A DNA stretch of 64,000 nucleotides from Myxococcus eversor (GTDB taxonomy: Bacteria > Myxococcota > Myxococcia > Myxococcales > Myxococcaceae): positions 614,962 to 678,961 of the forward strand of contig NZ_JAAIXY010000002.1 in the NCBI RefSeq assembly GCF_010894455.1, given 5' to 3'. Shown here in pieces: positions 3,139 to 42,704 of the stretch. How positions within the stretch are numbered: position 1 is the first letter of the stretch; the number at the start of each line of letters is the position of its first letter. A model generated the notes under the pieces. The model was not told where the DNA came from. It was given only the letters and a program-made list of their open reading frames with translations, and did not search any database. The position numbers were made by a program, and so were the translations under genes.

Positions 3139-4803
3139 TTACGGAGCAGGCACCGGAACCGGCTGGGTCGCGATGCTATTGACCGTCAGGTCCACGGTGA
3201 GCGGCTGGCCCCAGATGCTCTGGTAGGTCTCGGTGACACCACGCTCCGCCAGCTTCGAGAACGCGACCTGCATCGACGTGGTGCTCGGGATGATTCCCAC
3301 GCCAGAGTAGACGAACGAGTAACGGGTGCTGTACCCCGAGGTGGTGATGGGGAAGACAGGCAACTCGGGCTGCTGCACACGAGTCTGGTAGGGAGCCGTG
3401 GGCTCGTTGATGCTCAGCACGAAACCCTGACCACTGTAGTTGCCCACTTCGCCAAACGACCCACGACCCACGGTCCCGTTGTTGTCGATGTCGACGTTGA
3501 AGAAGACCTGCACCTTCGAACCGTCAGCGAACACGGGCGGAGTGAAGAGGGGGGAGCTGAAGTTGATGTAGACGAGCTCACCCGTGTTGAGCTGCTGCGA
3601 GGTGGGCGCCGTCAACGACGTCTCCTGATAACGCGCCTCCGCGATGGTCACCGGCGTCACGGTGCCGGTCTCGCCACCGAAGAAGAAGCCGGTGCGGGAG
3701 TAGAGGTTGCCGGTCTCCGCGGAGACAGCGCGCAGGTCCAGGTTGTACTCCTTGCCCGTCTGCACCACGCCGTTGCCCGGCGTGACAGTGGCGCTGTAGC
3801 CACCATTGCCCAGAGCCACGGTGACGGGCAGCGCCTCCTTGGCGTACTCGTCCGTCAGACGCACCAGCAAGGAGCTCGGCTGCACGGGGTGGTTGAAGTA
3901 CAGGTAGATGGGCTCGCCCGGCCGCACCATGTTGCGCAGCGGATGCGGATCCGCGGCACCCCGCAGCATCGCCACGTTGCTGCCCTCGACGGTCAGCGTC
4001 GCGTTCGTCGGCCGCGAGTTGGGCAGGTTGATGAGGCGCGTGGTCCCAGAGGCCACCACGTCGCTGGCGAAGTAGCTGCTCACGTAGCCGTTGGTCTCCG
4101 GCACGCCGTCACTGTTGGAGTCCACCGCGGACACCCACAGCCGGTACTGGCCCTGGTTCAGGCGCGCCAGTTCCTGCGCGGCCGGGATGCCCTGGAACAC
4201 CAGCGCGCCCTGGTCGTCGGACGTCGCCTCGACGACCACCGTGCTCACCACGCGCGTGGTGCTGTCGTTGTTCGCCAGGATGATGGTGCCCGCGGGCGAG
4301 GCCTCGAGCGTCGCGCGCACGTTCGCCGCGGGACGGCCCTGCGGCGTCACCAGCAGGAAGCGCAGCGAGCCGTCGAGTCGCGTCAGCGTCACGGGGCCGA
4401 AGCTCACGTTCGCGTTGTTGATGGGCACGTTGCCCGCCGACGACGGAATCGTCGACGTGGCCCGCAGCGTGGCATAGCCCGCCTTGGTGAAGGTCAGCAG
4501 CACCTGGGAGCCGGCCGGGACGTCCTTGAACTCGAAGTTGCCCTTCGCATCCGTCGTCCCAGCGAGCGGATCCGCGGAGCTGCCGATGGTGATTTCCACC
4601 GAGGCCTCGGCGAGCGGCTTCAGGTCCGTGCTCAACACCTGGCCCGACACCGTCCCCTTCGGCGTCGCGGGCGTCACCACCGTCACGCTGTCCGGCTCAC
4701 GGATACCGTCGGCGATGCCGTCACCGTTCTCGTCCTTGAAATCATCACCGCACCCCAGCGCCAAGAACGGCACCACGGCCATGACCAGATGCTTCTTCAT
4801 CAT
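3139..4803 (-). CDS. Lipoprotein with carboxypeptidase-regulatory-like and Ig-like domains
   Basis: A 554-residue exported lipoprotein. The signal MMKKHLVMAVVPFLALGC ends in a lipobox, and GDDFKDENGDGIADG resembles a calcium-binding loop. Residues about 45-120 form a carboxypeptidase-regulatory-like fold (VSGQVLSTDLKPLAEASVEI ... DAKGNFEFKDVPAG). A second beta domain and an Ig-like segment (PIYLYFNHPVQPSS) follow. Two adjacent ATGs (4803, 4800) follow the Shine-Dalgarno AAGGTGGGG; either may serve. No catalytic residues are seen. The next gene upstream is divergent, so the space between 4804 and 5069 must carry its promoter. Confidence 0.8.
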   Translation of the reverse strand: MMKKHLVMAVVPFLALGCGDDFKDENGDGIADGIREPDSVTVVTPATPKGTVSGQVLSTDLKPLAEASVEITIGSSADPLAGTTDAKGNFEFKDVPAGSQVLLTFTKAGYATLRATSTIPSSAGNVPINNANVSFGPVTLTRLDGSLRFLLVTPQGRPAANVRATLEASPAGTIILANNDSTTRVVSTVVVEATSDDQGALVFQGIPAAQELARLNQGQYRLWVSAVDSNSDGVPETNGYVSSYFASDVVASGTTRLINLPNSRPTNATLTVEGSNVAMLRGAADPHPLRNMVRPGEPIYLYFNHPVQPSSLLVRLTDEYAKEALPVTVALGNGGYSATVTPGNGVVQTGKEYNLDLRAVSAETGNLYSRTGFFFGGETGTVTPVTIAEARYQETSLTAPTSQQLNTGELVYINFSSPLFTPPVFADGSKVQVFFNVDIDNNGTVGRGSFGEVGNYSGQGFVLSINEPTAPYQTRVQQPELPVFPITTSGYSTRYSFVYSGVGIIPSTTSMQVAFSKLAERGVTETYQSIWGQPLTVDLTVNSIATQPVPVPAP

Positions 4804-5069
4804 CCCCACCTTGAAAAGATTTGCTTGAGCTCTCACGCCCCCAACCATGAAAGAGCGTGGGGCGGACACTCTCCGACCCGGCCCCTTCACGTCAAGCAGG
4901 CGACAGTCGCACTCCCCCTCGCCCCAAACCGCGAACACCACGCCCTGGGGCGATCACAACACACCCCTCCCATTCTCTTAGTTTCCAGAGGGTCTGACGA
5001 GACCCTCCCTTGCGCGATGCGTCTTCAGAGCGCCCTGCCCTGGCGAAAAACGACTGCTACGGTGGCCCC

Positions 5070-5513
5070 ATGGTGGATGTGAATGAGCCGTGTCTCGGCT
5101 GTGCCATCACACGCGGCGAGCACCGCCCCGTGGGGGGCATCCTGGCCCGGGCTCCAGGGCTGGTGCTGCATGGCGTCGCGGGCCCCAGTCCCGTTCCCGG
5201 CTGGGTCGTCATCTCCAGCGAGCAACATGCACGTGCCTGGTACGAGTTGGATGACGCCACGGCGCGGGAGCTGGGTGGGTTCGCCGCTCGGGTGATGCGC
5301 GCCCAACGCGAGGTGCTGGGCGCCGAGCACGCATACGCCTTCGCCATCGGCGACGTGCTCCGCCACTGCCACCTGCACCTGGTGCCGCGCTTCCGGGAGA
5401 CTCCGCGGCGACTGTGGGGCCGCGCGGTGTTCGACGCGGCCCCGGTGGATCATCTCCCCTCGGAGGCGCTGGAGGCCGCCGCTCGCTCGCTCGCCGCCGC
5501 ACTGGCGGACTGA
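5070..5513 (+). CDS. HIT family protein
   Basis: A 147-residue histidine-triad protein. The triad is in LRHCHLHLVPR (H99, H101, H103), with the expected upstream regions (WVVISSEQH, FAIGDVL) and a CxxC near the N-terminus (C8, C11). HIT proteins hydrolyse or transfer nucleotidyl groups, and H101 would be the nucleophile. The ATG at 5070 is preferred over an in-frame ATG at 5010 because homology-like sequence starts here. It lies 60 bases before the large helicase gene and may share its transcript. The natural substrate is not predictable. Confidence 0.88.
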   Translation: MVDVNEPCLGCAITRGEHRPVGGILARAPGLVLHGVAGPSPVPGWVVISSEQHARAWYELDDATARELGGFAARVMRAQREVLGAEHAYAFAIGDVLRHCHLHLVPRFRETPRRLWGRAVFDAAPVDHLPSEALEAAARSLAAALAD

Positions 5514-5573
5514 GGTCACCCTCCAGGCCCCATGGTAGACAGCGACCTCCCTCCCCTGGAGAGAGGTACCGCC

Positions 5574-8500
5574 GTGTCGTCCGAGTCCCGCAGCCGCGTC
5601 CTCGCGAAGATGCTCGAGCGGCTCTACGCCGCGCTCGCGTCCGGACCCAGCCTCAACTGCCGCCCCCACCACAGTCGCCAGCGCCTGGACCTCTCCGTGC
5701 TGAGCCGACTGGACGGCACTCCACCTCACGCGGTGCTGGCCGCGCTGCTCGGAGACAAGGCCTCGGCCCGGCTCACCGTGAAGCCGCTCCCCAAGTCGGG
5801 CTCGTCCGGACTCTCGACGTCACTCGAAGGCACTCGGGCCAGCGCGGACGACATGCGCGCGCCTCGCGTGGAACTCGAGGCCGACGACGATGAAACAGTC
5901 TCAACGTCGACGCGAGCCGAGGAGGAACAACAGGCCCTGCTGCGCAAGCTCGCGGCCATCGTCGAGGACGCCCGCATCTTCGAGCAGGACACCGGCGCGC
6001 ATGTCCTCCACGTCGGCTTCCCCTTGCTGCACCTGCCCCCGAGCACCAAGGACAAGCGCGGCTTCGGCACCCGGCGCATCCTCGCGCCCATCGCCTTCGT
6101 CCCCGTGCGCATCACCGTGAAGAAGGGACGCGCGACGGCGGTCGAGCTGGAAGGCGCCGAAGAAGGCGTGGACCGCGTCGCACCCAACACCGCGTTGCTC
6201 GCGTGGCTCGAACAACAGACGGGGGAGCGCTTCGGCGAGCTGTTCGCCGATGAGGAGGGTGTAGACCCCTGGCGCGAGGTCAACGAACTGGCGGCCCTCG
6301 TCTCCAAGGCGTTGGAGCTGCCTGCTCCAGCGACCTTCTCGCCCGAGACGCTCCTGGCTCCCGTGCCCCGCTCGGACGAGGAAGGCGCCACGGCCTCCAT
6401 CATCCCCAGCGCCGTGCTCGGCTTGTATCCGTTGTCGAATCAGAGCCTCGTGGATGACATGCGCGCGCTCGTGGACGGCGAGCCCATCTCCGGTCCGCTG
6501 GAGAGCTTCCTGCGAGTGGATGTGTCGCTCGGGCAGGTCGCTCACTCGGGCGGCGGTGAGCGGAACCTGGAGGGGCTCAAGCTCGCCGCCGAGGAACGGC
6601 TCGTCACCATCGCGGACCCTTGTCAGGCCCGTGCGGTGCGACTGGCGCGCAGCCGTCGAGGGCTCGTCATCCATGGGCCTCCTGGCACCGGCAAGTCGCA
6701 GACCATCGCCAATGCCATCGGCGACCACCTCGCCCGAGGTGAGCGGGTGCTGTTCGTCTGCGACAAACGCACGGCGCTCGACGTCGTGAAGCACCGGCTG
6801 GACCACCTGGGCCTGGGCAATCTGTGCGCCGTCGTGCACGACGCACAGAGAGATCAGCGGGACCTCTATATGGGCATCCGCGAACAGCTCGACACCCTGC
6901 CCGAAGCGCGGACCCACGCCGCCGTGACGAAGGAGCTGTCCAGCGTGGACGAGGAGATCCAAACCCTCCACGACGAGCTCAGCACCGCCGAGCGCGCCCT
7001 CTCCGAGCGCCCCGCCGGCGGCACCGCTCCCTCCTTCCACGAGTTGGTGGGCCAGTGGCTCTCCCTGGAGACTCCCGCCGCGCTCAGTCCCGCCACGTCG
7101 TCCCTCGCCTCCGCGCGGCTGGGTGATGTCATCCCGCGCGAGCGCGAGACACGCGAAGTCCTGGAGCGCGCGCTCAAGGAAGGCTACCCGGACAATCCCT
7201 GGCGCGAAGCCCTGGGCGTGGACCTGGCCACGTACCTCGCCACGCCGCTGGCCACCTGGCGCGAGCGCCTGAGCACCACGGTCGACGCGGCCCGTGACGC
7301 CGACTCCCTCGCATCCCCGAACATCCCCTCCTTTGGCGCGGAGCCCGAAGCCGAGGGCACCGCTCGCGCCCACTTCGCCGGGCAGCTTGCTCCGTTGCTG
7401 GAGACCGCGAGCCCTGAAGCGCTCGCGCGCTGGAGCGTCGCTTCCACGGACGCCGTGCGGACCGCGAAGGCCCAGCTCGATGGGCTCGCGCCCCAGGTGA
7501 AGGTGCTCTCCGAGGGGCCACTCGATACGGAACTCGCGTTGATTCAGCGTGAGCAGCCCCAGTCACTGGGCGCGCTGTCCACGGCGCTCGCCACGCTGGG
7601 CGCGTATCTGGGCATCGCCAGCAAGTGGTACGCCTTCTTCTGCTTTGCTCGGAAGGCGGGCGCTCGCAAGGTGCTCCAGCAGTTCGGCCTCACGCTGGGT
7701 GCCGCCGCCGCTGACCGTGTCAGTCGATTCCTCACTGGCGCTCGTGCCCGCGCGCTGCTGAGCGAGTTCCACCGCTCCACGCTGGCTCCGATTTCCACCA
7801 GGACGCAGAGCTCGGCCGTGGGCCTGACCTACCCCGGTGAGGCTCCGAGCTCCGCCGGAGGCCTCTCCACCTTCGCGAGCCTTCCCGATGAGCTGCTGTC
7901 GCGGGACCTGCGCACTCACAGCGCCCTCTTCGACGTACTGGGCACGCTGGACAACACGCCTCTGCTCGCCTCGTGCCGCGACGCCGTGCGCCGGGCCCTG
8001 ACGGGAGACGCCTCCGCTCGCGCCGCGCTGCTCACGGCCCTCCGTCAATCTCCCGCCCGAGGCGCGGCGGTGGCGAAACTGGAGAAGCGCCTCTCCGAAA
8101 CAGGACTCCTCTCCTCGACGTGGCTCGCCACCCGCTCGCGCGAGCTGCGCGCTGGCGCCCAACTGCTCCCCATCACCTCCGCTTTCCATGCACGTCTGTC
8201 CACCGTGGAGGGAATGCTGCGCCTGCGCTCGTTGCTGTCCGGCATGCCGCCCACGCTGGAGACCGCGGTGGAAGCCCTGGCACGCCAGGGCGTGGACGCG
8301 GACACGGGATGGACGTCCGTCCTCAAGGCCACGCTCGCCGCGGAGGCGTCCTCACGCCTGCGTGAAGACCCCGCCCTCCAGCACGTCGACGCCGAGCGCG
8401 CCCAGGCCACCCAGGCCCGATACCGCGTGCTCGAGGAGAAGAAGCGCGGACTCGTCCGCGACGCCATCCTCCACCGGTGGACGCAGCGCCAGCGCGAGCG

Positions 8501-33470: not shown

Positions 33471-34556
33471 CTACCACCGCTCCTCGTCCGCCTTCGGAGC
33501 CAGGGGCCACACGGGCGGGGAGACACCATTCACGGAGACGCCACCGTGCATGAACACGGGCGCGCCCTTGATGAACTCCGCCGGGAAGTCGAGCTTCGGC
33601 TTGGACGCCTCATCCAGCGCCTTCAGTTGCTCCGGCTTCAGCACCACGTCCAGCGCGCCCAGGTTGTTGTCGAGCTGCTCCAACGTGCGCGCCCCCAGGA
33701 TGGTGGACGTCACGCCCGGCCGTCCCTGCACCCACGCCAGCGCCACGCGAGCCACCGTGGTGTCCTGCTCCTTCGCCACGCGCTGAAGCACGTCGAGGAG
33801 CGCATATGTCTTCTCGTTCAGCGAATTCTCCGCCCACGCGCCCCGGTCCGCCTTCAGCTTCCCCGCGTTCTCCCGCGTGTACTTGCCACTGAGCACCCCG
33901 CTCTTCAGCGGCGACCACGGCGTCACCCCCAGCCCCAGCTCCCGAGCCATCGGCACCAGCTCCCCCTCCACCGTCCGCTCCACGAGCGAGTACTCCACCT
34001 GCAACGCCACCAGCGGTGCCCAGCCCCGGAACAGCGCGATCATCTGCGCCTGCGCCACCTTCCAGGCCGGCGTATCCGAGATACCGATGTAACGGACCTT
34101 CCCGGAGCGGACCAGGTCCTCGAACCCGCGCATCGTCTCCTCGATGGGCGTGTTCTCGTCCCAGCAGTGCATCCAATACAAATCGATGTAGCCCGTCTGG
34201 AGCCGACGCAGCGACTCCTCGCACTGCGCCATCATCGACTTGCGCCCCGCGCCTCCACCATTCGGGTCCCCGGGGAAGAGGTTGCTGATGAACTTGGTCG
34301 CAATCACCACCCTGTCGCGCTTGCTCGGATATCGGCCCAGGTGGTCGCCGATGATTTTCTCCGAGTGCCCTCGCGTGTACGCATTGGCCGTGTCGATGAA
34401 GTTGCCGCCCCGCTCCAGGAAGCGGTCCATGATGGCGTTGGACGTCTCGACGCTGCTGCCCCAACCCAGGTCGGTGCCGAAGGTCATCGCGCCCAGACAA
34501 AACGGACTGACCCGCAGACCGGAACGACCCAGCGTGACGTAGTGGTTCAACGACAT
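33471..34556 (-). CDS. Aldo/keto reductase
   Basis: A 361-residue AKR TIM barrel. The catalytic tetrad is complete: D55 and Y60 in FIDTANAY, K88 in IATKF, and H130 in LYWMHCWD. Further signatures are LGRSGLRVSPFCLGAMTFG, YIGISDTPAW, VALQVEYSLVERTVEGELVPMARELGLGVTPWSPLKSGVLSGKY and the NADPH-site STILGARTLEQLDNNLGAL. It belongs to the YajO/AKR11-like group. It reduces carbonyls with NADPH in the cytoplasm; the physiological substrate is unknown. Confidence 0.95.
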   Translation of the reverse strand: MSLNHYVTLGRSGLRVSPFCLGAMTFGTDLGWGSSVETSNAIMDRFLERGGNFIDTANAYTRGHSEKIIGDHLGRYPSKRDRVVIATKFISNLFPGDPNGGGAGRKSMMAQCEESLRRLQTGYIDLYWMHCWDENTPIEETMRGFEDLVRSGKVRYIGISDTPAWKVAQAQMIALFRGWAPLVALQVEYSLVERTVEGELVPMARELGLGVTPWSPLKSGVLSGKYTRENAGKLKADRGAWAENSLNEKTYALLDVLQRVAKEQDTTVARVALAWVQGRPGVTSTILGARTLEQLDNNLGALDVVLKPEQLKALDEASKPKLDFPAEFIKGAPVFMHGGVSVNGVSPPVWPLAPKADEERW

Positions 34557-34747: not shown

Positions 34748-35167
34748 ATGACGACCTCACACACCGACGCGTCAGAGGACGTCCGTGCCCTCCTCGCCCT
34801 CGAGGAGTCCATCGTCCGCGCCATCCAGGCCCGCGACACCCAGGCGCTCCAGGGGTTGATGGCCAAGGACCTCGTCTTCCGCGGCGTGGGCGACGTGGAG
34901 ACGGACCTGACGGCCTTCCTCGCCAACATCGCCGCCATCCCTGGCACCCTCCTCTCCGTCGAATCAGAGACGGTGAGAGCCCACGTCTTCGGCGACACCG
35001 GAGTCCTCACCGGCACCCAACGGGCCCGCGTGCGGCTCCCCGACGGCACCGAAGTCACGGACGTGGGCCACTTCACCGACGTGTGCCAGCGTCGCGACGG
35101 TCGCTGGTGGGTCGTCCTCGCGCACAGCCTCCCCGCACCCGCACCGCCTCCCTCCACTCCCGACTGA
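34748..35167 (+). CDS. SnoaL/DUF4440-like NTF2-fold protein
   Basis: A 139-residue protein with NTF2-like features: a helical start (LLALEESIVRAIQARDTQALQGLMAKDLVFRGVG), then strands VRAHVFGDTGVLTGTQRARV and VGHFTDVCQRRDGRWWVVLAHSLP. Such small cone-shaped proteins are enzymes (ketosteroid isomerase-like) or ligand binders. It is divergent from the aldo/keto reductase gene. No specific role can be given. Confidence 0.8.
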   Translation: MTTSHTDASEDVRALLALEESIVRAIQARDTQALQGLMAKDLVFRGVGDVETDLTAFLANIAAIPGTLLSVESETVRAHVFGDTGVLTGTQRARVRLPDGTEVTDVGHFTDVCQRRDGRWWVVLAHSLPAPAPPPSTPD

Positions 35168-35249: not shown

Positions 35250-35280
35250 GTGTCCTTTGGTGATACACTGTGTCCTACGG
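35250..35280 (+). promoter_or_regulatory. 20-bp-spaced direct repeat upstream of a hypothetical gene
   Basis: GTGTCCTTTGG (35250-35260) and GTGTCCTACGG (35270-35280) are direct repeats exactly 20 bases apart, ending 11 bases before the likely ATG at 35292. The first also pairs with GGACA at 35241-35245. Two helical turns of spacing suits a regulator dimer site, but this is inference. Confidence 0.35.
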
Positions 35281-35291
35281 GGGTGGTCAGG

Positions 35292-35870
35292 ATGCCGCTC
35301 AATCGCGGTGAACGTCGGTGGACGCTGCCAGCACGAAACGCGGACTGGCTCGTCGTCTCATCCGTGGACGCCGAGGCGAAGGAGCGCCACCGCCACCCCG
35401 TACCCGAGGTGTTCGTCACGTCCGCCCTGGAGCGGTGGCTGTCCACGCCCTCGGCGCGCACGCTGTATGGCATCTACGAGTCGCTCGGCGGTGGCAGCCC
35501 CTTCGGCCTGACGGGCCCGGAGCGCACGCGCTACGAGGAGCGCCTCAAGCAGCGCCTCTCCGACGCCTTCTCACGCGGAGAGCTCGTCGCGCTGGAGGTG
35601 GCCCGCCCCAGGAGCGTGCCCGCGCCGTGGACGCCCCAGCCCGAGGACCCGGGCGAAGAGGCCGTGGTGGAGGAGATGACCTGGCTGGCCATCGAGCTGA
35701 AGGACGAGGCGGGCAAGCCCGTCCCCAACGCCCGCTACGTGGTGACCCTGCCCGACGGCAGCACCCGCGAAGGCACCCTCAACGCCAATGGCTACGCGCG
35801 CGTGGAGGGAGTCAATCCCGGCGAATGCCAGGTCACCTTCCCGGAGTTGGACGGCCAGAGCTGGAGCTGA
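35292..35870 (+). CDS. Hypothetical protein with C-terminal carboxypeptidase-regulatory-like domain
   Basis: A 192-residue cytoplasmic-looking protein without a signal peptide. The N-terminal part (TLYGIYESLGGGSPFGLTGPERTRYEERLKQRLSDAF) is unrecognised. The C-terminal 65 residues (LAIELKDEAGKPVPNARYVVTLPDGSTREGTLNANGYARVEGVNPGECQVTFPELD) form a small beta domain of the type often attached to type VI secretion VgrG/PAAR-associated proteins. ATG 35292 is chosen because the alternative GTG 35250 lies inside a direct repeat. It converges, 7 bases apart, with the two-component operon. Confidence 0.65.
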   Translation: MPLNRGERRWTLPARNADWLVVSSVDAEAKERHRHPVPEVFVTSALERWLSTPSARTLYGIYESLGGGSPFGLTGPERTRYEERLKQRLSDAFSRGELVALEVARPRSVPAPWTPQPEDPGEEAVVEEMTWLAIELKDEAGKPVPNARYVVTLPDGSTREGTLNANGYARVEGVNPGECQVTFPELDGQSWS

Positions 35871-35877
35871 CCTTTGC

Positions 35878-36288
35878 TCAGGGCCTGCGCGGACCCGGAG
35901 CGGACGACGACATCCCCAGAGGTCTCTGGGGCAACAGCTTGAAGAGGAAGGCCAGGAGCGCCTCGAAATGGTCACCCTTGCGGAAGACGGCATCCACCGG
36001 CATGTCGATGGCACTGTCCGCGCCGGTGACGAAGACCACCTTCGCGCCCGGCATGTGGTGACGCACCAGCGGAATCAACCCGGTGCCGAAGCCATCACCC
36101 AGGCTCTGGTCCAGCAGCACCGCGTCGATGGGCCGCGGGTGGTTGAGCCACTTCTCCGCTTCCGCGTAGGAGCCCGCTGTCACGACCGCGAAGCCCGCCT
36201 CCTCCAGCAGCGCCGCGAGCGTCATCCGGTTGGACGGGTCATCTTCCACCAGCAGCAGGCAGCGCCCGAAGGTCCAGCTCGTCTCCAT
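35878..36288 (-). CDS. Response regulator, receiver only (last gene of the six-gene signalling operon)
   Basis: A 136-residue receiver protein: acidic residues in LLLVEDDPSN, phospho-acceptor D60 in VLLDQSLGDG, switch Thr in FVTGAD, and Lys K104 in FRKGDHF, where the usual following Pro is Gly. The ATG overlaps the stop of the upstream kinase gene (TGATG), implying translational coupling. No output domain, so it signals by protein contact or serves as a phosphate sink for the operon kinases. Confidence 0.9.
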   Translation of the reverse strand: METSWTFGRCLLLVEDDPSNRMTLAALLEEAGFAVVTAGSYAEAEKWLNHPRPIDAVLLDQSLGDGFGTGLIPLVRHHMPGAKVVFVTGADSAIDMPVDAVFRKGDHFEALLAFLFKLLPQRPLGMSSSAPGPRRP

Positions 36289-37037
36289 CACTTGCTCCCC
36301 CGTATCTCGTCATGGCCCGCGAGCCGCATCCTGGCCCCCGCCTCCGGGCGGTGCAGGAAGAGGACCTCGACGTGCGTGCCCCCTGAAGGGCCTCCGTCCA
36401 GTGCCACCTTCCCCCCATTGCGCAACACCAACCGCTGCACGATGTTCAAACCCAACCCCGCATGGCCGGGACGTGTCGAATAGAAGGGCTCGAAGGCACG
36501 CGAATACGCCTCCGCCGCCAGACCCTCTCCCACGTCCTCCACGCGAATGCCCACGCCGCCCTCACCTTCCTCAACGTCCCACGTCCGCACCGTGAGCATT
36601 CCGCCGCGCGGCATCGCCTCCACGGCGTTGTCCACCAGACAGCGCACCAGGAGCGCCAGGTCCTCCAAGTCGAGCGGCACCGTGCCCCGGGCCTTGAAGT
36701 CGCGCTCCACGCGCACCTGCTCCGGTATCCGCGCCTCCCGCAGCCCGTGCTCCATCGCCTCGCTCGCGTGGCACAGGGGCTTGTCGCTGCTGGCCACGGG
36801 AGCCCGGCGCGTCAGCACCTCCTCGGCGGCCGCCAGCTCCCGGTCGATGAGCTGGAAGAAGGCCTCGACGCGGGCATCCGTGCCCCACACGTCCGTCTTC
36901 TGCATCTTCCGCATCAGGTAGAACGAAGCATTGCGGACACTGGCCAGCTTGTTGCGGAGGTCATGCCGCAGCGTGGAGGCGACGACGTCCGCCACCGCGG
37001 CCCGTTCCCGCGCTTGGAGATCTGCGCGCGCGCCCAT
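36288..37037 (-). CDS. Soluble histidine kinase without sensor domain
   Basis: A 249-residue kinase: the phospho-acceptor is H25 in TLRHDLRNKLASVRN, the N box is VDNAVEAMPRGG, the G1 box is VEDVGEGLA, the F box is FEPFYSTRPG, and the G2 box is GLGLNIVQ. No membrane segment or sensor domain is present; the first 20 residues are helical. The ATG is 3 bases after the stop of the two-receiver gene, with GAGG upstream. Lacking its own input, it may take its cue from the neighbouring receiver proteins or the membrane kinase. Confidence 0.92.
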   Translation of the reverse strand: MGARADLQARERAAVADVVASTLRHDLRNKLASVRNASFYLMRKMQKTDVWGTDARVEAFFQLIDRELAAAEEVLTRRAPVASSDKPLCHASEAMEHGLREARIPEQVRVERDFKARGTVPLDLEDLALLVRCLVDNAVEAMPRGGMLTVRTWDVEEGEGGVGIRVEDVGEGLAAEAYSRAFEPFYSTRPGHAGLGLNIVQRLVLRNGGKVALDGGPSGGTHVEVLFLHRPEAGARMRLAGHDEIRGSK

Positions 37038-37040
37038 CCG

Positions 37041-37820
37041 TCAATTCCTCGCACCCTGGGGCCCTTGGGGCCCCTGCGCCCGGGGTTGGCCTCTCACCCG
37101 GGCAATCGCTTGCACCAATTCCCGCAGCGGCACCGGCTTGGTCATACACACCACCGCGCCCTGCGCCGCCACCTTTCGTAACAATTCGGGCACCACGTGC
37201 CCCGACATGGCGATGACGGCCACGGACAGGTCCGCCGCCTTCACCTTGGCCACCAGCTCCGGCCCGCTCATCTCCGGCATCACCAAATCCAACACGCACA
37301 CGTCGAAGTCGCCCGAGCGCAGGTAGTTCAGCGCTTCCTCGCCGCTGTACACCGCGCGAGCACGCAGCCCCACCGTGCTCAGCGCGCGCACCATGGCGCG
37401 AGCCACCGGCTCCGTGTCGTCCACCACCAGGACCTGAGGGGCCCGGGCCGCGCGCAGAATCGTGTCCAGCGCGTGCGCCACGTCGAAGGGCTTGGGCAGC
37501 ACGGTGAAGGCGCCCTCCGCGAGCGCGTCCTCCACCAGCTCCTCCGCCGTGAAGGCGGTCATCAACACCACGGGCATGTCCGGACGCGCCTGTTTGATAC
37601 GGCGCAACAGGTCCACTCCGTGCAGCCCGGGCATGCGCATGTCGCTGAGCACCACGTCCACCGGATGCTCACCCAGGAGGCGCAGCGCTTCCTCTCCGTT
37701 GGCGGCCTCCAGAACGGTGTGGCCCTCCAACTCAAGGTTCGCCGCGAGCGTGATGCGCAGCCCCTCCTCGTCGTCGACCAAAAGGATGCGAGCGGGGCCC
37801 AAAGCCACGTCCTCCATCAT
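37041..37820 (-). CDS. Response regulator with two tandem receiver domains
   Basis: A 259-residue protein with two complete receivers. Domain 1: LLVDDEEG, D60 in VVLSDMRMPG, Thr in LMTAF, K110 in LPKPF. Domain 2 (from about 128): VLVVDDTEP, D178 in CVLDLVMP, Ser in IAMSGH, K228 in MTKPVP. No output domain; the short tail is Gln/Gly/Pro-rich (QPRAQGPQGPQG). The ATG overlaps the stop of the membrane kinase (ATGA). A phosphorelay hub between the two kinases is plausible. Confidence 0.92.
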   Translation of the reverse strand: MMEDVALGPARILLVDDEEGLRITLAANLELEGHTVLEAANGEEALRLLGEHPVDVVLSDMRMPGLHGVDLLRRIKQARPDMPVVLMTAFTAEELVEDALAEGAFTVLPKPFDVAHALDTILRAARAPQVLVVDDTEPVARAMVRALSTVGLRARAVYSGEEALNYLRSGDFDVCVLDLVMPEMSGPELVAKVKAADLSVAVIAMSGHVVPELLRKVAAQGAVVCMTKPVPLRELVQAIARVRGQPRAQGPQGPQGARN

Positions 37821-39238
37821 GCGGCCTGCGCCGCCGCGGTTGCCGGGAGATGAATGTGGAATTCACTACCCCGGCCGGCTTCGCTTCGCACAGAGATTGT
37901 GCCTCCGTGACGTTGCACCATGTTGGCCACAATGGCCAGCCCCAAGCCGGTGCCACGCGTCTTGGTTGTGAAAAGCGGTTCGAAAATCTTGGGCAGCACG
38001 TCCGGAGGGATGCCCGTCCCGTCATCTACCACGCGAATGGCCCACGGCCCCGTGTCGCCGCCTTCCGCCAGCACTGAAACCTGACCCGCTCTGCCCTGGG
38101 GCATGGCCTCCACCGCGTTCTGCACCAGGTTCACCAGCACCTGACGGAACTGCTCCTTGTCCAGGCTCGGCACGGGGAGCGATTCGGGGACTTCGTTGAG
38201 GATGCGGACACCGTCCCGAGAGGGAACCACGCCAATGGCCTCGTCCACCAGAGGTCGCAACGGACACGGCTGCAGCGCCGGTGGCCGCTCGCGCGCGAAG
38301 TCGAGCAGGTCGGAGATGATTTTCGCGCACGCGCCCAGCTCGCGCTCCATCACCCCGAGGAACTGGGGGACCCGTGGGTCATCCGCGGCCCCGATGGCAT
38401 CTCGACTCAGTCGTCGGGAGAGGTAGGCGTGCGCGTTGCGCACAGCGGCCAGGGGGTTGCGCAATTCATGACCCACGCTGGCGGCGAGTTGACCCACCGC
38501 GGCCAGCTTCTCCACGCGGATGAGGTGCTCCTGGAAGCCACTCAGCTCGCGCAGCGCGCGGTCCAGCTCCGCGGACTTGTCCTCTTCGCGCTCGCGCGCC
38601 AGCTCCAGCTCCGCGCGGCGCACGGCGACTTCGCGCATCTCCCGCCGCATCACCCGGCCCGCGTGCAGGAGCACCAGGTTCAGGAAGCCCACCCAGAGGG
38701 CGTGCTCCAGGAAGCGCCACCACTCCACGTGGGGCAGGCCGTACACCGACTCCGGCCACACCAGGCCCCGGATGATGTGGTCCGCGACGGTGGCGACCGT
38801 GGCCGTCAGGAGCACCCACGGGTCCCGATACAAGGAGAGGAACGCGAGCGAGACGAAGATGTGGAAGTGCGTCTCGATGCGGCCACCCGTCAGGTGGATG
38901 AGCAGCGAGGACCACAACATCTGCGCCAGGGCCACGCCGTGGCGGGTGGGGATGGCCCCGGGGCGCCAGCGCGCCAGCGCGATGGGGAACACGGTGAGGG
39001 CCGCGCCGATGAAGAGCGCGGCATACACGTGGGCATGGAGGGCGCGGTCCTTGCCCTCCCAGCCATAGGGCGAGACGAAGAGGGCCACGAGGATGCCGAA
39101 GGCCCATTGGGCCAGCATGAGGCCCGCGAACAGGCGGTCCGTGCGGCGTCGCACCGTGGTCAGGTGCTCGTGGAACAGCAGAACGGCGCGTTCCTTCAGT
39201 GCCACCGTCGGGCCGCTGGCATCCTCCGTGGGCTTCAT
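37817..39238 (-). CDS. Membrane sensor histidine kinase
   Basis: A 473-residue kinase. About six membrane helices span residues 35-195, including the segment ETHFHIFVSLAFLSLYRDPW, seen in other bacterial sensor proteins. A coiled coil (200-240) leads to HisKA, with H257 in SVGHELRNPLAAVRN. The ATPase domain has the N box LVQNAVEAMPQG, G1 VDDGTGIP and G2 RGTGLGLAIV. Start ATG 39238 overlaps the stop of the thioredoxin-like gene (ATGA). The signal is unknown; a His-rich membrane domain beside a redox protein hints at redox or metal input. Confidence 0.94.
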   Translation of the reverse strand: MKPTEDASGPTVALKERAVLLFHEHLTTVRRRTDRLFAGLMLAQWAFGILVALFVSPYGWEGKDRALHAHVYAALFIGAALTVFPIALARWRPGAIPTRHGVALAQMLWSSLLIHLTGGRIETHFHIFVSLAFLSLYRDPWVLLTATVATVADHIIRGLVWPESVYGLPHVEWWRFLEHALWVGFLNLVLLHAGRVMRREMREVAVRRAELELAREREEDKSAELDRALRELSGFQEHLIRVEKLAAVGQLAASVGHELRNPLAAVRNAHAYLSRRLSRDAIGAADDPRVPQFLGVMERELGACAKIISDLLDFARERPPALQPCPLRPLVDEAIGVVPSRDGVRILNEVPESLPVPSLDKEQFRQVLVNLVQNAVEAMPQGRAGQVSVLAEGGDTGPWAIRVVDDGTGIPPDVLPKIFEPLFTTKTRGTGLGLAIVANMVQRHGGTISVRSEAGRGSEFHIHLPATAAAQAA

Positions 39239-39864
39239 GGGGTGTTCGTGGCCCGGGCCTCGGGCGGTTCCTCCAGTGCGCAACCGTAGACAGCGTGCTC
39301 CGACGACCCGCCCACCCGACCCGCCTCCCGCAGCAGCGCCTCCACGGCGTCCCGCCCCGGGTTGTCACCTCGATGTCCCCGCGCCCCGGTGAGTCCACCG
39401 CTGAAGCGGAGCCGACCGGCGGCATCATAGAACAAGGAATGTCCGGAAGTAGCGACTCCAAACCCGCGAGCTTGCTCGCCTCCCATATCCGCGAGCACGG
39501 TGACGCCCGGAATCGCGGCGGCGGCACGCCACAGGGGCCCTTGCGTCCAGTCGCTGGAAGTGCCCTCGGGCTGGAGGAACAGGACGCGCGCGTCGAGCTG
39601 GCCCCGGGCGTGCTCCATCAGGACGGACAGCTCCCCCAGGCTCGCGCGAGTGCAGGGGCAGCGCGGGTGGGCGAGCATCACCAGCGTGGGCCGCCCCTCC
39701 GCGCGAGGAGGGTGCGCGGACGAGGGCCAGGAGGAAGGGGCCTCGCGCGTCTCGCCCGGGGTGAGGGCATGTCGGGCCAGGAGCGCGAAGCCCGCCGCCG
39801 TGGCGACCAGCCACAGCAGACCTCCCAAGAGCCACGCCCCCCGCGACAGGGCGGGAACCTTCAT
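39235..39864 (-). CDS. Membrane-anchored thioredoxin-like protein with a CPC motif
   Basis: A 209-residue protein: an N-terminal membrane anchor (GAWLLGGLLWLVATAAGFALLA), then a thioredoxin-like domain (RPTLVMLAHPRCPCTRASLGELSVLM, DARVLFLQPEG, GVTVLADMGGEQARGFGV, SGHSLFYDAAGRLRFSGGLTGARGH). The active-site-like element is HPRCPCTRAS with C69 and C71, a C-x-C rather than C-x-x-C spacing. The ATG overlaps the stop of the preceding receiver gene and its stop overlaps the kinase start, so it is an integral operon member, likely periplasmic. Confidence 0.85.
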   Translation of the reverse strand: MKVPALSRGAWLLGGLLWLVATAAGFALLARHALTPGETREAPSSWPSSAHPPRAEGRPTLVMLAHPRCPCTRASLGELSVLMEHARGQLDARVLFLQPEGTSSDWTQGPLWRAAAAIPGVTVLADMGGEQARGFGVATSGHSLFYDAAGRLRFSGGLTGARGHRGDNPGRDAVEALLREAGRVGGSSEHAVYGCALEEPPEARATNTP

Positions 39865-40298
39865 CGGGGACCCCACTTGTGCTCGGCCAGGCCGGAGGTC
39901 AGCCGGCTCATGTCGCGCTTGAGGCGCGCGGACTCGGCGGCCCGGCGGATCATCGCGATGAGGTCCGAGGGCTGGTAGGGCTTGAGCACCAGATAGAAGA
40001 GGCCCTGCGCATCCAGGCGGTCCCTCCAGTCGAGGTACTCGCGAGAGCCCGTCACCAGCACGCCCGCGAGGTGAGGGTACTGAGTCACGGCCTCGCGCAG
40101 CAGTTGGATGCCGCTGGGCCCGGGCATGTGGAGGTCGGTGCACAGGACGTCGAAGGGGCGCAGTCCGAGCAGCCGTCGCGCGGTGAGCGCATCGGGCGCG
40201 GTCTGGACCTCGAAGTCCTCGGAGAGCACGGCCGAGGTGGTGGCGAGGACAGCGGCCTCGTCATCCACCAGCAGAACCTGGAGCCTCGGAGCAGTCAT
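39861..40298 (-). CDS. Response regulator, receiver only (first gene of the operon)
   Basis: A 145-residue receiver: VLLVDDEAAV, phospho-acceptor D55 in LCTDLHMPG, Thr in VLVTGSR, K106 in LVLKPYQP, and a helical tail (RLKRDMSRLTSGLAEH). ATG 40298 is preceded by GGGAGGT at 7 bases, a strong site consistent with the operon start. Five genes follow, with overlaps or very short gaps. The 284 bases upstream (40299-40582) should hold the promoter; no convincing sigma-70 or sigma-54 site was found there. Confidence 0.92.
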   Translation of the reverse strand: MTAPRLQVLLVDDEAAVLATTSAVLSEDFEVQTAPDALTARRLLGLRPFDVLCTDLHMPGPSGIQLLREAVTQYPHLAGVLVTGSREYLDWRDRLDAQGLFYLVLKPYQPSDLIAMIRRAAESARLKRDMSRLTSGLAEHKWGPR

Positions 40299-40582: not shown

Positions 40583-42025
40583 TCACTGGTGGGCGGTGAA
40601 GCGGCCTTTCGCCAGGAAGACGTTCGCGTCGTCGATGAGGACCTCCGTGCCCGCGTCGGCGCGCCAGACGTCGATGAGCGCCGTCACGCGCTCGTACGTG
40701 AGGGGATAGACGTCGCCATGAGGAGGCTTCTCCACCAGCACCCACTCGTACACCTGACCGTCAGGGGGCTGCGGTCCACCCACCGCGTGGATGTCGTCGC
40801 GGTCCGCGAGCAAGGAGACAAAGTTGCTGCCGAGCAGCGCCGGGCCCTCGCGATGCTGGGCAAGCACCTCCACGCCGCGCGCGATGCTGTCCAGCCGCGC
40901 CGGGTCTCCGGGACACTGTCGCGGGTACGTCCGGGAGGAGGTCAGCGTGCGCGTGAACTGGCGCAGGTTGAGCTCGTTGCTGAAGAGGAGGATGAGCCCC
41001 GTGGACACCAGGACCCATGCGGGCACCTTCCGAGCGCGCAGCAAGGGCAGGAAACCCATCAGCGCCGCCGCCAGCAGCGGCACGCCGTAATGGAAGCGCC
41101 AGGCCATGCCGAGGAAGCGGATGCCGAGCATCGGCAACAGCACCAGCAGCCACGCCCAGTCCGGCTTCACGCGCTCGCGCCAGGCCCAGACTCCCAGCGG
41201 AACCAGCAGCAACACCAGCGTGCCCACGCGCGACAGGTGGACCGGAGCCAGCCTGAGCGAGATGTAGTGGAGGAGCCCGCCGTCCATGCCCTGCTTGAGC
41301 CGGATGCTGTAGTCCTCCGACGGCCCCAGCCACCACGGCCGCAACCCATAGACGCCCGCGAGCCACACCAGCGACAGCACGCCCACGCCCACCGCGAAGC
41401 GCCGCTCGCCGCGCAGCCACAGCGCGACGGTCAGCATGATGCCCCCGAAGGCGAACTCCTCCTTGCAGGCGAACAGCAGCACCAGCGACACGAGCAGCCA
41501 GCCGTTGCGGCGCAGGTGCCACGCCACGCCCGCCATCACCCACGGCAGCGCGGACCACGTCGTGGGGTGGATGGGGAACTTCAGCGCCTCCACCGCGCTG
41601 GGAGACAGCAGCAGGAACGCCGCCAGCAGCCCCGTGGCCGCGCGACTCAGCAGCCCGCGTGCCTGGAGCCAGAGCAGCGGCGCCACCGCGAGCAGCACGA
41701 AGAGCGCCTCGCCCACCAGCGCGGCCCACATCGGAGGCAGCACCGCCACCAGCGGGCGCGCCAGCACCAGGATGGGGTCGAAGTGGTCGTTGAAGATGTA
41801 GACCTGTCGCGCGCTGAGCCAGGGGTTCGGGTCCTCGAGCGACATGCGCGCCAGGGCCTGCGTGTAGATGCCCAGGTCGAAGTGCGCGAAGCAGGCGTGC
41901 GCGGCCTGAATCCACACCGGCGCGACGACGAGCACCGCCCAGACGAGGACCACGAGCGGCAGGGCCAGCATGCCCGGCCATCGCCGTGCGTGTCCGGGGC
42001 TCGAATCGTCGGCGGAAGGAGTCAT
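40583..42025 (-). CDS. DUF2079 family polytopic membrane protein
   Basis: A 480-residue protein with about ten to twelve helices. Family signatures include FAHFDLGIYTQALARMS (first external loop with acidic residues), NDHFDPILVLARPL, ALKFPIHPTTWSALPWV and LLFACKEEFAFGGIML. DUF2079 proteins resemble GT-C glycosyltransferases and would use polyprenyl-phosphate sugars. The C-terminus is a soluble domain (ALLGSNFVSLLADRDDIHAVGGPQ...). ATG 42025 is taken; GTG 42055 is possible. Two TGAGCCGCTC direct repeats (40561, 40575) lie at its 3' end. Confidence 0.83.
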   Translation of the reverse strand: MTPSADDSSPGHARRWPGMLALPLVVLVWAVLVVAPVWIQAAHACFAHFDLGIYTQALARMSLEDPNPWLSARQVYIFNDHFDPILVLARPLVAVLPPMWAALVGEALFVLLAVAPLLWLQARGLLSRAATGLLAAFLLLSPSAVEALKFPIHPTTWSALPWVMAGVAWHLRRNGWLLVSLVLLFACKEEFAFGGIMLTVALWLRGERRFAVGVGVLSLVWLAGVYGLRPWWLGPSEDYSIRLKQGMDGGLLHYISLRLAPVHLSRVGTLVLLLVPLGVWAWRERVKPDWAWLLVLLPMLGIRFLGMAWRFHYGVPLLAAALMGFLPLLRARKVPAWVLVSTGLILLFSNELNLRQFTRTLTSSRTYPRQCPGDPARLDSIARGVEVLAQHREGPALLGSNFVSLLADRDDIHAVGGPQPPDGQVYEWVLVEKPPHGDVYPLTYERVTALIDVWRADAGTEVLIDDANVFLAKGRFTAHQ

Positions 42026-42189
42026 GAGGTCGCGAAGCGAGGCGCCACCGGCCACGGCCCCGAAGCCGCGTCGTCTAGCGCACTCTCGTGACGCATGTCA
42101 TCCGACTCGACAGACCGTCCGGCCCCCCGGGGCCCGCCGCACCCGAACGAAGGATGCGAGGCCCCGAGGCACGAGGTCCTCCATGCACT

Positions 42190-42528
42190 TCAGTGTCGAT
42201 GATGCGCGTGCAGCCCATCCGTGTAGTGCTGGAGCTGCCGGCGCGCGGCGTCGAACGCATCCGATACGGCCTGGTAGGGGTCCTCGTGCGCGGCGTCGTG
42301 CTCCGGGTCCCTGCCCGCGACGATGTCCTTTCCGGGCACGTGCAGGTCCACGCGCACCCGGAAGTGGTGGCTGTGCGCGTTGTGTCGGTGAGGCTCATCC
42401 ACCACGACGTGGCATCCGACAATGCCGTCGAAGAACTGCTCCAGCTTCGCTGCGTGGTCGCGGATGTGCTCGTTCAGGGCCTCGCTGGTCGCCATGCCCC
42501 GGTAGGTAATCTGCAACGCTCGCTTCAT
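42190..42528 (-). CDS. hpf: Ribosome hibernation promoting factor (HPF/RaiA family)
   Basis: A 112-residue protein with the HPF/RaiA fold: MKRALQITYRGMATSEALNEHIRDHAAKLEQFFDGIVGCHVVVDEPH, then FRVRVDLHVPGKDIVAGR and the helical YQAVSDAFDAARRQLQHY. The tail is His-rich (DGLHAHHRH). HPF binds the 30S decoding region and silences ribosomes in stationary phase. This is the short form without the dimerisation domain. A GAGG lies 8 bases before the ATG. In-frame sequence extends upstream to 43068 but opposes the alcohol dehydrogenase gene and is not coding. Confidence 0.9.
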   Translation of the reverse strand: MKRALQITYRGMATSEALNEHIRDHAAKLEQFFDGIVGCHVVVDEPHRHNAHSHHFRVRVDLHVPGKDIVAGRDPEHDAAHEDPYQAVSDAFDAARRQLQHYTDGLHAHHRH

Positions 42529-42704
42529 CGTCGGCCTCGGGTCGGGCCCCGCCATTCGCGGGGCTTCAGGGTGCACCCCTCTCCATTGCATCACCCTGGC
42601 CAGCGCCAACCCCTTGGAATGCCTGGGCACCCCGCGCGCGCTTGCGCGGGCTTTGCGGCGAAATGGGGCGGCGCGCAGCCCCTGCGGGGCGCAATGCCCC
42701 ACGC

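Follow-up and report, generated by a model that had tools for sequence, protein, structure and literature searches.

The window analysed here, a stretch of 64,000 nucleotides from Myxococcus eversor (assembly GCF_010894455.1, contig NZ_JAAIXY010000002.1, positions 614,962 to 678,961), carries at positions 35878-40298 six open reading frames (ORFs), all on the minus strand and in the order A-B-C-D-E-F. They probably represent, at a rough probability of 0.72, the Red phosphorelay operon of Myxococcus species together with an input cassette of RedB and RedC, in which RedB tunes the input. The relay is already known; the part that looks new is the cassette, in which RedB and a RedC-type sensor form a recurrent two-gene pair in many distant phyla, mostly in kinases and hybrid kinases. 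The features of the operon are listed below, the names redA and redB being assigned by position in the operon.

39861..40298, minus strand: redA-like gene for a single receiver, 145 amino acids (aa), acceptor Asp55 (Pfam Response_reg, 9.3e-16)
39235..39864, minus strand: redB-like gene, 209 aa, membrane helix and thioredoxin-like domain (conservation, AlphaFold 2 (AF2) model, structure comparison with VIA)
39652..39660, minus strand: CPC codons of RedB, C69-P70-C71 (read off the sequence)
37817..39238, minus strand: redC, membrane histidine kinase, 473 aa, phospho-acceptor His257 (HisKA 2.7e-12, HATPase_c 1.2e-28)
38564..39238, minus strand: RedC sensor domain, aa 1-225, predicted six-helix membrane domain (66-row alignment, AF2)
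37041..37820, minus strand: redD, two receivers, 259 aa, D60 and D178 (Response_reg 1.5e-53, two stretches)
36288..37037, minus strand: redE, sensorless kinase-like protein, 249 aa, H-box His25 and HATPase_c (HATPase_c 4.5e-17)
35878..36288, minus strand: redF, single receiver, 136 aa, D60 (Response_reg 9.1e-13)

Five tight junctions connect these genes: ATGA at A/B, at B/C and at C/D (or TGATG at C/D if the second ATG is the start), a 3-base gap at D/E (TGA CGG ATG) and TGATG at E/F. An earlier note on this DNA had described exactly such an array, composed of a receiver, a CPC thioredoxin-like protein, a membrane kinase, a double receiver, a sensorless kinase and a receiver, and both layout and contents are borne out. 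The same applies to its four receivers, which are all complete, and its two kinases, here called kinase-like proteins; Pfam detected no DNA-binding family among the six proteins. The receiver aspartates (RedA D55, RedD D60 and D178, RedF D60) are kept in all aligned sequences, namely 13 for RedA and 19 each for RedD and RedF, and RedE His25 is kept in 19 of 19, the window being counted in each alignment. RedC H257 is nearly invariant.

In Myxococcus xanthus, redCDEF is described in excerpts of PMC3018481 as a T1-R1R2-T2-R3 "four-component" system, and the window genes follow this order when their domain content is compared with the published description. Locus L060, on a contig titled Myxococcus xanthus AM003, contains B-C-D-E-F with 63/75/87/65/86% identity to the window and shares its overlapping B/C, C/D and E/F junctions as well as the 3-base D/E gap. 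As the gene order recurs in other species and the junctions recur in L060, the arrangement is more than chance. Of 195 Myxococcota genomes searched with RedD, 36 gave a match (E <= 1e-38), always a single one, and the 27 genomes of the window's genus are all among them. All six genes were found in genome G137 (locus L040, 41-62% identity), in a record titled Polyangiaceae (L095, 41-50% identity) and in G051 (L049), where RedB is relocated behind redF on the same strand. The window operon differs from the M. xanthus system by the extra upstream receiver in the redA position, for which tblastn (E <= 1e-5) gave no match in the M. xanthus-type loci L060-L063, L142 and L151. It is close to certain that the six genes are the Myxococcus copy of the known Red relay, orthologous to RedCDEF, and the possibility of a novel operon was rejected on account of this match. 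The multi-step relay proposed in the earlier note therefore stands, while its wording that the layout resembles known myxobacterial arrays falls short of orthology. The primary papers on M. xanthus RedC-RedD-RedE-RedF are said to be those of Higgs (2005) and Jagadeesan (2009), the first of which reportedly links the Red four-component system to developmental timing in its title. Two further loci were noted. A Myxococcus-type red operon (L063; B-F 67/75/87/64/85%) lies in a record titled Comamonas sp. KCTC 72670, a title that is probably a mislabel, and in L162 (G082, 4486-5634) redE directly follows redA, with redB, redC, redD and redF not detected in the 8 kb taken.

The distribution of RedB points beyond the relay. 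Genome contigs were scanned with a 19-row RedB alignment and the single peptide pattern HPxC[PTA]C[TS]RA[ST], so that cassette loci were sought with RedB alone, and the best 80 of 311 relatives were evaluated. The titles of these relatives include Verrucomicrobia, Planctomycetota, Acidobacteria, Omnitrophota, Melainabacteria and others. A RedC-type sensor lies downstream, on the same strand and within 300 bases of the RedB match, in 68 of the best 80 loci, a proportion that does not describe the other 231. These gaps run between matched domains rather than gene ends, and L094 is counted among the 68 despite a sensor match split over two frames. The 12 exceptions comprise two contig ends (L058, L106), four Myxococcaceae orphans (L064, L065, L066, L068), two loci with no sensor in the DNA examined (L097, L119), one with an adjacent sensor on the opposite strand, split over two frames (L102), and three convergent cases 2.4-3.1 kb away (L115, L116, L132). 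No natural RedB-RedC fusion was found among the scan loci with a sensor match, and a class search from G161, covering 4 genomes, added nothing. Alignments A2 and A4 hold 65 of the 68 cassettes (without the partial L094, L103 and L120), and A3 holds 77 of the 80 loci (without L058, L124 and L128).

According to Pfam, the 66 sensor proteins (the window and these 65) contain HATPase_c in 63, HisKA in 51, a receiver in 38 and Hpt in 10 cases, in addition to GGDEF, EAL and MCPsignal in one each. In several Myxococcota genomes the RedB-sensor pair presumably feeds an output resembling a methyl-accepting chemotaxis protein (MCP), judged by eye from sequence motifs. Within the Myxococcota, counting only rows above 150 bits, the sensor gene is found downstream of RedB in 48 of 61 places (49 if G175, with overlapping matches, is counted); the unpaired RedB genes are ten lone genes in genus g6, that of G102, which is split over contigs, and that of G051. 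Across 55 cassettes (without the window, L057-L068 and L095), RedB distances track those of the sensor (r 0.72) more closely than those of the kinase core (0.52), with a bootstrap difference of 0.12-0.28 and a partial correlation that was reached by 0 of 1000 permutations. Among the matches listed, the titles and abstract openings of the literature contain no description of a RedB-sensor cassette; the primary Red papers lie outside that scope and may discuss RedB.

RedB is predicted to consist of an N-terminal membrane helix (aa 8-33) and a thioredoxin-like domain (aa ~37-197) with HPxCxC at H66-C71, plus C195. The window protein has no Pfam match at E 0.001 and no NCBIfam match at E 0.01. At a looser limit only DUF6436 appeared (0.29, below the DUF6436 cut-off), a family touched by 24 of the 78 RedB family members with a best E of 0.00094. 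All 19 Myxococcota rows of alignment A1, which was gathered by whole-protein similarity without the motif, share H66, P67, C69, C71 and C195. These residues are also invariant in the 78-row A3, an independent result for C195 only, since the search pattern builds the conservation of H66, P67, C69, C71, R73 and A74 into that alignment. The AF2 model (predicted local distance difference test score, pLDDT, 91.6) adopts a thioredoxin-like fold: its VIA comparisons gave Z 15.7 for 3u5r_E (root-mean-square deviation (rmsd) 3.4, 164 aligned), 15.2-15.5 for 2ywo, 2cvb and 2ywi, 12.5 for ResA (1st9) and 12.4 for CcmG (1kng). The usual active site of the thioredoxin family is CxxC. Window RedB and all 19 A1 rows carry CxC, so RedB is called thioredoxin-like and is not assigned to ResA, CcmG or TlpA. 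Its likeness to 3u5r (SMc02350), 2cvb/2ywo, 2ywi and the ResA/CcmG group lies in the predicted fold, whereas the CxC, the third conserved cysteine and the sensor-domain partner gene set it apart from 3u5r and the ResA/CcmG group. We infer both the chemistry of RedB and the signal that is sensed.

The RedC sensor domain is likewise poorly covered by existing families, with DUF998 as the best Pfam match in the window (0.0035, below the DUF998 cut-off) and 0.00051 as the best E among the 66 members (DUF4079, one member). The AF2 model of RedC aa 1-240 (pLDDT 92.7) was closest in VIA to AC9 (Z 12.6, rmsd 3.3, 169 aligned), ImcA (11.3, 5.3, 214) and AC8 (9.2, 4.3, 212), followed by the next unrelated row at Z 6.6 and Rv1625c at 6.5, scores to be read with the caution that helical bundles below about Z 13 can match through arrangement alone. 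Foldseek returned no match for the model at E <= 0.001; it is therefore likely, but not certain, that the predicted domain shares its fold with the six-transmembrane (6TM) domains of adenylyl cyclases and ImcA. The 6TM domains of AC9, AC8, Rv1625c and ImcA are the best structural rows for the RedC model, which differs from them in its set of conserved His, Arg and Glu residues and in the thioredoxin-like gene beside it, and identity to the adenylyl cyclase and ImcA chains is 10-14%. Six histidines are conserved among the 66 sequences (H124 in 66, H179 in 66, H154 in 65, H70 in 63, H126 in 62 and H68 in 60). If the predicted helices and an N-in start are assumed, they would be located at the outer-side helix ends, facing the compartment of the RedB thioredoxin-like domain, an arrangement that would suit a metal or cofactor pocket as well as a docking face.

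Related 6TM systems offer a comparison. Excerpts of PMC4821796 and PMC12414865 give CqsS as a 6TM kinase equivalent. ImcA of Pseudomonas aeruginosa is useful here because, according to the part of PMC10904736 consulted, its contact with the regulator IsmP requires the transmembrane regions; as would be the case for RedB and RedC, a 6TM signalling protein is under the control of a second protein. IsmP itself differs from RedB, being described in the same excerpt as an iron-binding CHASE4/PAS protein with GGDEF and EAL rather than a thioredoxin-like one. The window's genome contains two further RedC-type sensor genes without RedB upstream, G000:C42:140635-141282 (L137) and G000:C102:32453-33103 (L138); L138 codes for a kinase similar to RedC (51% over aa 2-465) that has other residues in place of H68, H70 and H179.

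In the mechanism proposed here, the membrane helix of RedB would sit in the inner membrane and place the thioredoxin-like domain in the periplasm, where RedB would partner the outer face of the six-helix sensor of RedC. It may set the state of the sensor by thiol chemistry, or by metal or cofactor handling at the conserved histidines, and the change would travel along a long helix into the RedC kinase. Phosphate would then pass from RedC to the first receiver (R1) of RedD, to His25 of RedE and to RedF, an order that would follow from M. xanthus biochemistry as reported second-hand, with the second RedD receiver (R2) and RedA as possible side acceptors or sinks. The output would be exerted through protein contact, not DNA binding. 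RedB would tune the input of a relay that can persist without it.

Several observations weigh against this reading. The action of RedB on RedC is suggested by genomic association, and the M. xanthus record L060 is identified by its title. When all 64 cassettes are included, the correlation of RedB distances is practically the same for the sensor (0.59) and the kinase (0.58). A RedB lies upstream at 48 of 130 sensor places in Myxococcota (49 counting G175; rows above 150 bits) and the remaining 81 have none directly upstream (G175 counted as paired); the sensor domain thus also occurs with no RedB next to it. Within the genus, an intact redB is absent from the locus while redC-F are kept in 10 of 27 genomes, losses that rest on assemblies. 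RedB-carrying members of the M. xanthus-type clade have lost H68 (8/8), H70 (6/8) and H154 (2/8), and G098 and G099, without redB at the locus, keep all six histidines. Since redC-F are kept in those ten genomes, RedB is regarded as accessory, and an essential role in the relay was rejected. The putative "integrated redox component" of the earlier note is partly supported: a predicted thioredoxin-like fold and the adjoining RedC-type sensor domains across phyla speak for it, while the ten genomes speak against it.

The redB losses leave varied traces. Remnants are clear in G098, G099 and G103 and weak in G109 and G095 (matches of 46-57 residues), and none was found at the locus in G097, G104, G108, G114 and G120. 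In G098 and G099 a different RedB, located next to an MCP-type sensor, could act in trans; a second RedB of the family was not found in the other eight redB-less genomes, with G120 giving only a 35.6-bit match. Sensor histidines were compared in 26 of the 27 genus genomes, G102 being left out as its operon is split over contigs. In the deeper RedB-less group (G095, G097, G104, G108, G109, G114, G120), H70 is lost in 7/7, H68 in 6/7 and H154 in 5/7 genomes, and all six histidines are kept in the eight RedB-carrying relatives of the window (window included). The link between the loss of histidines and that of RedB is suggestive only, and the idea that the former neatly follows the latter was rejected because of exceptions both ways.

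Other roles can be assigned to RedB. As a metallochaperone or cofactor-maturation factor (TlpA/Sco-like), it would load copper, haem or another metal into the His-rich outer side of RedC, and the signal would be the bound metal or ligand rather than the thiol state. The conserved histidines on one inferred membrane face, HPxCxC with a third cysteine, and a predicted fold near CcmG/ResA-type proteins, with TlpA-Sco and SCO1 chains among the Foldseek rows, all agree with such a role; it is nevertheless judged unlikely, as several histidines are lost where both genes are kept and full-His sensors occur without RedB upstream (L137, L139, L147, L148). Somewhat less likely still is that RedB is a general periplasmic thiol oxidoreductase which shares the operon without acting on RedC. 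In favour of this, RedB is predicted to fold like thiol-disulfide proteins, the relay persists in those members of the genus that have lost redB, and in genus g6 (Corallococcus by the titles of L064, L066 and L068), where RedD has no match in any of 16 genomes, a lone RedB is present in ten. What speaks against it is that RedB adjoins one type of sensor domain across phyla and with several output types, and that it co-diverges with this domain in the set without Myxococcaceae. The lone g6 RedB keeps both CxC cysteines and looks as if the remaining operon had been deleted. In L026 and L027, the two g6 loci in which this is readable, the start of the gene after it resembles that of the aldo/keto reductase next to the window operon.

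A further alternative to the preferred reading, a single relay through RedE, concerns the second kinase-like protein. Were RedE an active kinase, two inputs would converge on RedF and the operon would consist of two juxtaposed two-component pairs, an arrangement that excerpts of PMC3018481 consider as another possibility for loci of this kind. The N- and G-boxes are kept in most aligned RedE orthologs, which favours this view and counts against RedE as a phosphotransfer protein; the catalytic domain is missing in a single metagenome-assembled genome (L095) and degenerate in a single genome (L040). Even so, an active second kinase appears improbable, given these two loci and the published account of T2. 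Pfam recognised only HATPase_c in RedE, without a HisKA match, but the H-box with His25 is recognisable by eye, so that this gap is no sign that the phospho-acceptor is lacking. The RedE slot of L095 holds an 89-aa protein with the His domain only, which overlaps redD (TAATG) and redF (TGATG), and L040 RedE keeps the His domain next to a catalytic part without recognisable boxes. L040 has an extra frame between D and E, which we take by eye, from its motifs, to be kinase-like. Among the phosphotransfer-related domains measured in 18 orthologs, conservation is lowest in the RedE catalytic domain (0.65), compared with 0.76 for the RedE His domain, 0.84 and 0.86 for the two RedC domains, 0.86 and 0.79 for RedD and 0.79 for RedF; RedA was excluded, since its row includes non-orthologs at loci without redA. 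In the Red pathway, T2 (RedE) takes its phosphate from R1 of RedD and is apparently incapable of autophosphorylation, according to the same source (PMC3018481, in part). A RedE that passes phosphate on, as published for M. xanthus, would fit the decay of its catalytic domain.

A wider reading is held tentatively, at somewhat less than even confidence. RedB and the RedC-type 6TM domain may constitute an unnamed cross-phylum two-protein receptor, in which a periplasmic CxC thioredoxin-like co-receptor controls a receptor of the adenylyl-cyclase/ImcA fold that is plugged into kinases, hybrid kinases, chemoreceptors, cyclic-di-GMP domains and the Red relay, and RedE may document how a kinase is reduced, in one and the same operon slot, to a histidine phosphotransfer protein and nothing more.

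In the window, the operon is neighboured by genes for an aldo/keto reductase (33471-34556), a DUF4440/SnoaL-like protein (34748-35167) and a protein with a sub-threshold CarboxypepD_reg match (35250-35870) on one side, and by genes for a DUF2079 membrane protein (40583-42055) and an S30AE hibernation-type factor (42190-42543) on the other.

The input signal of the Red relay is not stated in the portions of the literature covered here. Since a thiol protein and a His-rich sensor are kept together in many phyla with different outputs, this input can be studied apart from the relay. The function of adenylyl cyclase transmembrane regions is called unknown in an excerpt of PMC9433096, and the title of PMC12414865 refers to them as a 'blind spot'; a 6TM domain apparently of the adenylyl-cyclase fold that is accompanied by a partner would offer a manageable model. 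With RedE available as a series of full, degenerate and His-domain-only forms, the evolution from kinase to phosphotransfer protein becomes testable.

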